Positions 47,636 to 48,715 of a DNA stretch of 64,000 nucleotides are shown here, one piece after another (the stretch's first letter is position 1; the number at the start of each line of letters is the position of its first letter). The notes under the pieces were generated by a model that was not told where the DNA came from, did no database searches, and saw only the letters and a list, made by a program, of their open reading frames with translations. This stretch comes from Muribaculaceae bacterium Isolate-104 (HZI) (GTDB lineage Bacteria; Bacteroidota; Bacteroidia; Bacteroidales; Muribaculaceae). Where the stretch lies: assembly GCA_003762715.1 (NCBI GenBank), contig RIBJ01000035.1:1-64000 (forward strand). The letters are read 5' to 3'. A program made the translations under genes and the position numbers.

Positions 47636-47798
47636 CACAAAATACATGAAATGTCATCGGAATTGCCTGTTAATTTTTTTTTGCCGAGACAGAGTTTCCG
47701 AGAGTATGACAGCAACAACCGGCGGGCAATTATAAAGAAAAATTCATCTGTTGTGAAAATTTAACCTGCATGTGCGGCAGTTTTGCTCATGTGGCGGT

Positions 47799-47806
47799 TA
47801 ATTTTG
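47799..47806 (+). promoter_or_regulatory. -7 box for the small membrane protein operon
   Basis: TAATTTTG, exact TAnnTTTG, 50 nt before the first small gene at 47857. No -33 match. Confidence 0.4.
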
Positions 47807-47834
47807 CAAATGTTAGTCATGGTGACTCTCCTTG

Positions 47835-47859
47835 AAACCTGTTAAAAATAATAGATATG
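47835..47859 (+). repeat. Repeated translation leader, copy 1
   Basis: The 25 nt running from AAACCTGTTAAAA to the start codon of the 24-aa gene are nearly repeated at 48094-48119 in front of the 152-aa gene (common ends AAACCTGT and TAGATATG). Confidence 0.55.
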
Positions 47860-47931
47860 ACTTTTATCATAGTTATTCTTTGTGTGTTCGCGTGGCTTGG
47901 TCAAGCGCTTAAAGACGGAGCTGATATATAA
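47857..47931 (+). CDS. 24-aa membrane microprotein
   Basis: 24 codons plus stop: MTFIIVILCVFAWLGQALKD then GADI. One hydrophobic helix (residues 2-16) with a short polar tail. It is supported by its place at the head of three genes, the shared leader with the gene at 48117, and a -7 box upstream. I do not recognise it. It could be an untranslated coincidence; ribosome profiling or conservation would settle it. Confidence 0.5.
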   Translation: MTFIIVILCVFAWLGQALKDGADI

Positions 47932-47944
47932 CAATATATAACCG

Positions 47945-48103
47945 ATGCATATGATTGGTGTGATTATATTGTCGGCATTGGTGCTGTTTATCGTTATCTG
48001 TACCTGTCCCGGCTTCCTTACATTCTTTTTCTGTGTTGCATTGCCGGTCGGTGCGCTGGTATATTATTTAGTTTATAAATTGCGCCAGAAATTAAACCTG
48101 TAA
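47945..48103 (+). CDS. 52-aa two-helix membrane microprotein
   Basis: 52 codons plus stop, starting MHMIGVIILSALVLFIVICT. Two hydrophobic segments (residues 3-20 and 24-44) linked by a CPGF turn, with a basic C-terminus (YKLRQKLNL). Three cysteines lie in or near the helices. It is 13 nt after the 24-aa frame and 13 nt before the coiled-coil gene. Not recognised; possibly the membrane part of a small complex with its neighbours. Confidence 0.55.
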   Translation: MHMIGVIILSALVLFIVICTCPGFLTFFFCVALPVGALVYYLVYKLRQKLNL

Positions 48104-48119
48104 AAACATTATAGATATG
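48094..48119 (+). repeat. Repeated translation leader, copy 2
   Basis: AAACCTGTAAAAACATTATAGATATG-type leader (26 nt) before the 152-aa gene, nearly identical to the leader at 47835-47859; its 5' part overlaps the end of the 52-aa gene. A third partial echo, CCTGTAAAAAC, lies at 48590-48600. Confidence 0.55.
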
Positions 48120-48575
48120 TCATTTTGGAATTTTATAGGCGGATTCGTCTTGTTCAATATGGTTTGCAACTGGTTTTCGGGCAAGCCGAGAGTATCGGCG
48201 CCACTTAATGTGCAGAGCCGCGATTTAGAGTATGAAAACCGCCTGGCGCAATTGAATAGGGAAGTGGAGGCTTCTCGGAGAAAAATAGCGGAATATGACA
48301 GGATGATAGAACGGGATTTATACGCGGATGTTGCGGATTGTGACGTGGACGAGCTGCAAACCCGCATTGACGAACTTGAAAGCCGGCTTGACAACTGTGA
48401 TGTGATGTCAGAGCATTACGATTATATACAGGAGGAAATTGATATGTTACAAGATCGTCTTGACGAACTTGAAGAGCTTGAAGATTTGACTGATTTTGAT
48501 GATTGCCCGGATTTTGACATTCACATGCATGCAAATCTGTCTAATATGGATTTTGCCGATGACGACATGTGGTAG
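48117..48575 (+). CDS. Membrane-anchored coiled-coil protein, 152 aa
   Basis: 152 residues. The N-terminus is hydrophobic (SFWNFIGGFVLFNMVCNWF, residues 2-20), then a long coiled coil (about 35-122; NRLAQLNREVEASRRKIAEYD, LQTRIDELESRLDN, QEEIDMLQDRLDELEEL) and an acidic tail ending FADDDMW. The layout is a membrane-tethered rod, reminiscent in form only of PspB-type proteins. No family recognised. Third gene of the small membrane protein operon, closed by a strong terminator. Confidence 0.75.
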   Translation: MSFWNFIGGFVLFNMVCNWFSGKPRVSAPLNVQSRDLEYENRLAQLNREVEASRRKIAEYDRMIERDLYADVADCDVDELQTRIDELESRLDNCDVMSEHYDYIQEEIDMLQDRLDELEELEDLTDFDDCPDFDIHMHANLSNMDFADDDMW

Positions 48576-48596
48576 GGTAGATTATCAACCCTGTAA

Positions 48597-48637
48597 AAAC
48601 GGCTGTGTTGTAAACTCCAGTTACAACACAGCCGTTT
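48597..48637. terminator. Bidirectional terminator, small operon/tRNA-Arg
   Basis: Perfect 17-bp arms (48597-48613 with 48621-48637), loop 7 nt, A's on the left side and T's on the right. It serves the small-protein operon (plus) and tRNA-Arg (minus). Confidence 0.85.
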
Positions 48638-48641
48638 GAAG

Positions 48642-48715
48642 TGATCCGGATGCGACTCGAACGCATGACCGTCTGCTTAGAAGGCAGATGCTCTATCCAG
48701 CTGAGCTACCGGACC
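48642..48715 (-). tRNA. tRNA-Arg (TCT)
   Basis: Minus-strand cloverleaf: acceptor GGTCCGG pairs with CCGGATC, anticodon TCT in CTTCTAA, T-loop TTCGAGT, discriminator A. CCA is not encoded. It would read AGA/AGG codons. Confidence 0.97.

Follow-up and report, generated by a model that had tools for sequence, protein, structure and literature searches.

A conserved 24-codon gene, preceded by an operator-promoter that is common to recA of the same bacteria and by a hairpin with covarying arms, opens a small operon in Muribaculaceae bacterium Isolate-104 (HZI). The operon lies in the window analysed here, i.e. the whole stretch of 64,000 nucleotides at the start of contig RIBJ01000035.1, and its features are collected in Table 1. 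Chances appear about even that it belongs to a recA-linked regulon of Muribaculaceae, most likely SOS-like, in which the microprotein acts as a membrane arrest peptide of the SidA or TisB kind.

Table 1. Features of the microprotein operon and of its control region (positions of the window)
Feature	Coordinates	Strand	Remarks
TTAAC element (upstream portion of the common control site)	47761..47765	+	6-8 nt before the palindrome at the microprotein and most recA promoters
Palindromic operator GTGC-N9-GCTC	47772..47788	+	same element at recA and other genes
-7 promoter box TAATTTTG	47799..47806	+	fits Bacteroidetes TAnnTTTG; fixed 10-11 nt after the palindrome
5' leader hairpin	47812..47830	+	47812-47819 paired with 47823-47830; the five inner pairs are intact in this copy
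24-aa microprotein MTFIIVILCVFAWLGQALKDGADI	47857..47931	+	own-genome profile E 4e-16; pN/pS 0.34 versus 0.95 and 2.09 in the other frames
50-aa protein (gene 2)	47951..48103	+	two hydrophobic stretches; start and CPG motif shared by relatives
Leader copy before gene 3	48095..48119	+	resembles 47835-47859; 0/2000 shuffles
152-aa protein (gene 3)	48117..48575	+	N-terminus hydrophobic (MSFWNF), helical coiled coil, tail acidic
17-bp hairpin	48597..48637	.	100% complementary; -26.1 kcal/mol, z -6.1

Three ORFs follow each other in tandem, separated by 13-nt gaps (47857-47931, 47945-48103 and 48117-48575; 24, 52 and 152 aa). An earlier note on this DNA had described them so, and rechecking of the ORFs returned the same frames; the -7 box reported there is present as well. 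The operon is real and uncatalogued, as had been proposed, and its products are small and probably membrane-bound. In Pfam, NCBIfam, PHROGs and PADLOC, all matches were of the coiled-coil or chance type and stayed below the cut-offs, those of protein 3 being to generic coiled coils, and Rfam returned tRNA only, plus chance microRNA matches on the terminator hairpin. Membrane segments had been assigned to all three products; for proteins 1 and 2 it is probable, as judged from hydrophobicity and not by a dedicated predictor, and protein 3 has a low-confidence N-terminal helix (residues 4-20). The earlier note would have dismissed the 24- and 52-codon frames on finding stops, frameshifts or a lack of conservation in relatives; both frames passed this check.

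Conservation and substitution pattern both show that the 24-codon frame is a genuine gene. Its relatives were reached through the 152-aa protein, a search with which led to upstream frames of 24-25 aa sharing the core WLGQALKDG; the fuller consensus reads M..II..LC.FAWLGQALKDG..IK. About 19 clear loci were detected in the genus by a profile made of nine peptides, with E-values down to 7e-17. The extended profile found relatives in 78 of the 297 Muribaculaceae genomes sampled and in 16 of 30 genera, counts that rest on pattern matching in genomes of mixed completeness, one per species. Some three quarters of the family genomes are without the microprotein, which is therefore not a core checkpoint, a point against the damage reading proposed below. 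Among 393 Bacteroidales genomes sampled across the order, only four gave a match, and all four are Muribaculaceae. A degenerate DNA pattern run over GTDB genomes retrieved about 30 short frames, nearly all in records of Muribaculaceae or other Bacteroidales; Paramuribaculum intestinale is among these GTDB records, and the single one assigned to Pseudoflavonifractor is perhaps a wrongly binned contig. Strain DSM 100749 of P. intestinale carries the L002/L063 operon together with a second microprotein (L083). Two subclasses have been distinguished, class A (LC.F.WLGQALKDG), to which the present operon belongs, and class B (LLILP.WLLQALKDG). The microprotein is regarded as coding because substitutions are mainly synonymous in its own frame alone: pN/pS is 0.34 in the coding frame versus 0.95 and 2.09 in the other two, where the sequence pairs are non-independent and ascertainment explains part of the low value for WxxQALKDG, a pattern used in the search. 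Constraint is weaker outside the search pattern (0.53, versus 0.74 and 1.71 in the shifted frames). Of 37 sequences, 30 and 11 are interrupted by stops in the other two frames. One locus (L103, G018:C27:29570) encodes a divergent peptide of 23 aa, MSLIVVALCLFGWVGLTLSDKVE, which is devoid of the KDG motif and still has the operator, the leader and the initial portion of the family sequence. A CydX/CydS oxidase subunit was considered and rejected: the best Pfam match, PF22282, has an E-value of 0.067 and 13.5 bits versus a cut-off of 25, and no cyd genes were seen near the microprotein in the loci read.

Both the covarying 5' hairpin and the palindromic control element upstream of the operon had escaped the earlier note; together with the -7 box, the control region reads TTAAC-N6-GTGC-N9-GCTC-N10-TAATTTTG. 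The palindromic element is common to recA, and thus points to the likely role of the operon. About 35 aligned upstream regions exhibit TTAAC, GTGC-N9-GCAC (or GGGC...GCCC), about ten nucleotides, TAATTTTGC, the hairpin and CTTGAAAC. The operator pattern occurs once in the whole window, versus 0.02 occurrences expected. The strict palindrome-plus-box pattern was identified in 199 of 297 Muribaculaceae genomes, versus 2 with the reversed control; in 34 genomes of the genus, palindrome plus box was found at 39 places, versus one with the reversed control. A general housekeeping promoter was rejected on account of such rarity, the strict pattern occurring at about one site per genome and almost never in the reversed control, and a sigma-54 reading of GGCAC..TTGC on account of the unfit GG-GC spacing. 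Being GTGC-N9-GC(A/C)C, the operator is neither a known nor a non-canonical LexA operator, and the published Bacteroidetes LexA motifs (CTAA-N5-TTAG and GGA-N5-TCC) are not what is conserved here. Lying over the upstream promoter region, the site fits a repressor, but an activator would also be compatible with its near-fixed distance from the -7 box. No paper on the operator motif or the peptide was found among those open in PubMed Central, which is weak evidence of novelty.

In the genus, the operator precedes recA at 25 of 27 loci, that of the present genome included; the figure is made up of 23 of 25 recA promoters read directly, the own recA (L170/L148) and that of genome G031 (L156). It is also found at recA of two other Muribaculaceae genera (L200, L202), is lacking at L196 and at a second recA copy (L201), and is absent from all 22 recA promoters taken from other families of Bacteroidales. 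L201 and L202 are two full-length recA genes of one genome (G035), only one of which is preceded by the operator. Among 30 sites read in the family-wide strict scan, 10 lie before recA, 3 before a bcp-recA pair and 9 before one family of 69-96 aa proteins. The genes found behind the operator in the genus scan include recA (L115, L116, L128), umuD (L129), the microprotein family and small uncharacterised families. As in an SOS-type regulon, one operator is shared by recA, by bcp-recA operons of another genus and by umuD at 3 of 13 readable genus loci; umuD of the present genome is without it. Located by pattern only, the operators of this genome precede recA, two cytosine methyltransferases, a 132-aa protein, rtcB and the present operon. 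The sites before the two DNA cytosine methyltransferase genes and the rtcB-like gene (L167, C5:20522; L171, C18:926; L175, C65:75096) suggest that restriction-modification or RNA-repair genes are under the same control.

The list of targets invites a different reading, in which the operator would serve another stress regulator (redox, envelope, competence or DNA uptake), recA would be incidental and the microprotein would tune a membrane enzyme or transporter. Cytosine methyltransferases, rtcB and the small uncharacterised families are not classical SOS targets, in one genus the peroxiredoxin gene bcp stands between the site and recA, and a spacing that would suit an activator fits as well. 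However, no other recognised target is as frequent as recA in any of the samples read, and umuD, a Y-family polymerase and rarA are also linked; we deem this reading quite unlikely. A damage regulon gains from the occurrence, after microproteins, of rarA (L054, L078) and a Y-family polymerase (L250), which are replication or damage-tolerance genes. Against it speak the umuD genes, mostly devoid of the operator, and a conserved HTH-S24 protein, with DV(T/V)AG before the S24 domain (L162, C8:48125-48466 in the present genome; L221-L236). By its sequence, the protein looks like a self-cleaving repressor; no operator lies upstream of genes of this type, which makes it a less likely autoregulated repressor of the regulon. 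On balance, a family-specific damage regulon is the best reading, because the operator is shared, rare and centred on recA, in an order from which the known SOS regulators are reportedly absent.

Other small families reside behind the operator. One, of about 68-96 aa ('..TDIxFATxxxRGR..LRNxTQGWS..'), directly follows a recA-type operator in many Muribaculaceae (L107, L113, L114, L117, L121, L125, L130, L260, L262, L264, L265, L268, L269, L272, L273, L276), and one member gave no match in NCBIfam and PHROGs. A second, of 130-160 aa ('..AAASPAPxYYIxxxYALR..'), was found at L105, L110 and, in the present genome, L169 (C9:51769), and a third, of about 56-81 aa ('..SxRTVERVKALPxxxRxAIA..'), at L112, L127 and L279.

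The 5' leader hairpin, of the type GAAAGYCA-NNN-TGRCTTTC, sits presumably at the 5' end of the mRNA. Changes on both sides were observed at 7 of 8 pairs in 27 sequences, and 33 both-side-change cells were counted versus 10.6 expected, a value reached in 0 of 500 shuffles; sequences with no evident hairpin (e.g. L053, L083, L095, L091 and L054) had been left out of the alignment, which favours structure. The signal is abolished by shifting the partner arm. Two of the eight pairs are broken in the copy of the window. By eye, some recA leaders (L141, L142, L144 and L152) also seem to open with a hairpin after the -7 box, and hairpins at the 5' end may be more widespread in the recA-linked regulon.

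A structured leader is also found in the type I toxins TisB and DinQ, and the microprotein might be a damage-induced peptide which depolarises the membrane in their manner, is held by an antisense RNA and is under translational control by the 5' hairpin. Size, hydrophobicity and the link to the recA regulon fit; a peptide of 24 aa is within the limits of type I toxins, defined as short hydrophobic peptides of <60 aa, and TisB is both SOS-induced and controlled by its 5'UTR (PMC8309996). Yet, the terminator hairpin aside, no stretch complementary to the leader exists in the 1.2 kb around the operon, nor was a conserved antisense promoter noticed; WLxQALKDG is conserved more strictly than a generic pore needs, and an operon shared with two further proteins is unusual. 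An antisense antitoxin near the operon was rejected on the same 1.2 kb, and an overlapping or distant antisense RNA might still exist. Taken together, a type I toxin is rather unlikely.

Two further elements of the leader and terminator had been described before. The leaders preceding genes 1 and 3 are indeed alike: their local alignment, with one gap, scores 19, a value that was not reached in 2000 pairs of dinucleotide-shuffled sequences or in the 1378 pairings of other leaders before start codons of the window. The repeat is real here and is not kept in relatives; it is discarded as a conserved signal and taken for the standard leader copied locally, because at L009 a gene 3 homologue, with no microprotein, comes straight after the same promoter and leader. 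A supposed third echo, at 48590-48600, proved to be the A-rich flank of the 17-bp hairpin. The stem of the latter is present as described, followed by TTT on the plus and TTTTT on the minus strand; on the minus side it stands directly after tRNA-Arg (48642-48715, minus strand). Its role as operon terminator is less secure, since the T-run on the minus strand suits tRNA-Arg at least equally, and the hairpin is probably the terminator of tRNA-Arg, perhaps also shared with the operon.

Genes 2 and 3 are optional companions. Gene 2 has the pattern M(I/V/A)G.IL....C.CPG and, at ten loci or more, comes directly after the microprotein; the frame is real, and its start is most likely not 47945, as first assigned, but the second ATG at 47951 (MIG...), because five relatives begin there, with M(I/A)G or GTG-IG. 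Gene 3, the relatives of which are 35-49% identical, is found behind many class A microproteins, with or without gene 2. In the AF2 model protein 3 is helical (helices 4-20, 32-73, 77-92 and 99-129; mean pLDDT 73), with a pTM of 0.43 that makes the global fold not useful. Class B microproteins have other neighbours, named by eye from the protein sequences and not by family scans: besides rarA and the polymerase mentioned above, type III methylase genes lie downstream at L077, L083, L095 and L099, and a DUF1016-like gene at L061. L095 and L099 are IMG/VR viral contigs, and at L123 the operator alone, with no microprotein, is ahead of a type III methylase gene. Such variable partners argue against an obligate three-protein complex, and the fixed small envelope complex of the earlier note is not sustained, the microprotein being often alone or ahead of other genes.

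The same neighbours could denote a phage-defence or restriction module, in which the microprotein would guard, or signal for, restriction-modification and stop growth on attack. Class B copies do precede type III methylase genes, twice in viral or mobile contigs, or the DUF1016-like gene, and own-genome sites precede two cytosine methyltransferases; but class A copies reside amid housekeeping genes (nagB, tRNA-Arg and dapA, with tRNA-Arg/dapA also kept at L023/L071 in relatives) and PADLOC gave no meaningful match, which leaves this possibility very improbable.

In the damage regulon that we favour, a candidate regulator, probably dimeric, would act at GTGC-N9-GC(A/C/T)C, overlapping the upstream part of the promoter. 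DNA damage would trigger transcription from just after the TAATTTTG box, and the mRNA would open with the hairpin and encode first the microprotein. The peptide would insert in the inner membrane, and its conserved WLxQALKDG end would bind a specific membrane partner and halt division or growth during repair, as SidA does in Caulobacter or, less likely, TisB in E. coli. Binding of a partner, as for SidA, is favoured because WxxQALKDG is strict and no antitoxin is visible. Genes 2 and 3 may be accessories stabilising, placing or limiting the microprotein. A bolder version, to which we assign slightly less than even chances, is that Muribaculaceae have an SOS system of their own, with a new operator (TTAAC-N6-8-G(T/G)GC-N9-GC(A/C)C-N10/11-TAnnTTTG) and several small effectors, and that the microproteins are new, unrelated damage-induced membrane arrest peptides. 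If true, this would make the microprotein the first candidate for an arrest or checkpoint peptide in the Muribaculaceae damage response. Genes of 24 codons are easily overlooked by automatic annotation.

Among known peptides, SidA is an SOS-induced division inhibitor of Caulobacter crescentus, 29 aa long, which interacts with FtsW (PMC4211646). The microprotein is likewise very small (24-25 versus 29 aa), hydrophobic and apparently part of a recA-linked damage regulon. No sequence relation is evident, however, the two being likened by size and context and not by alignment; the phylum differs, the microprotein has optional genes behind and a covarying hairpin ahead, and binding to FtsW/FtsN with a block of division is a feature of SidA. 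TisB, an SOS-induced type I toxin of E. coli, is also 29 aa long (PMC8309996). TisB and DinQ share with the microprotein a short membrane-type peptide, damage-type control (predicted for the microprotein) and a structured mRNA leader; in contrast to them, the microprotein has no antisense RNA that could be seen, is strictly conserved in its residues and is in an operon with two other proteins. It shows no evident relation to either SidA or TisB, and membership of their families is not claimed. As for regulation, LexA-like SOS regulators recognizing CTAA-N5-TTAG and GGA-N5-TCC operators have been described in Bacteroidetes in 2021, and both groups were reported to be absent from Bacteroidales (PMC8565304); according to an earlier paper, Bacteroides fragilis had no known SOS-like response at the time (PMC3025348). 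With a recA-linked operator conserved in Muribaculaceae, one of the major families of the gut, the question of SOS in Bacteroidales becomes directly testable. As in the non-canonical LexA regulons of the same phylum (PMC8565304), a palindromic operator is found at recA and umuD. The Muribaculaceae operator differs from theirs in both sequence and spacing (GTGC-N9-GCAC). Mycobacterial PafBC controls activator-type damage promoters, in which the motif is at a fixed distance from the promoter box and recA is among the targets. Though different in sequence, the Muribaculaceae motif is likewise at a fixed distance from the box, and likewise counts recA among its targets.
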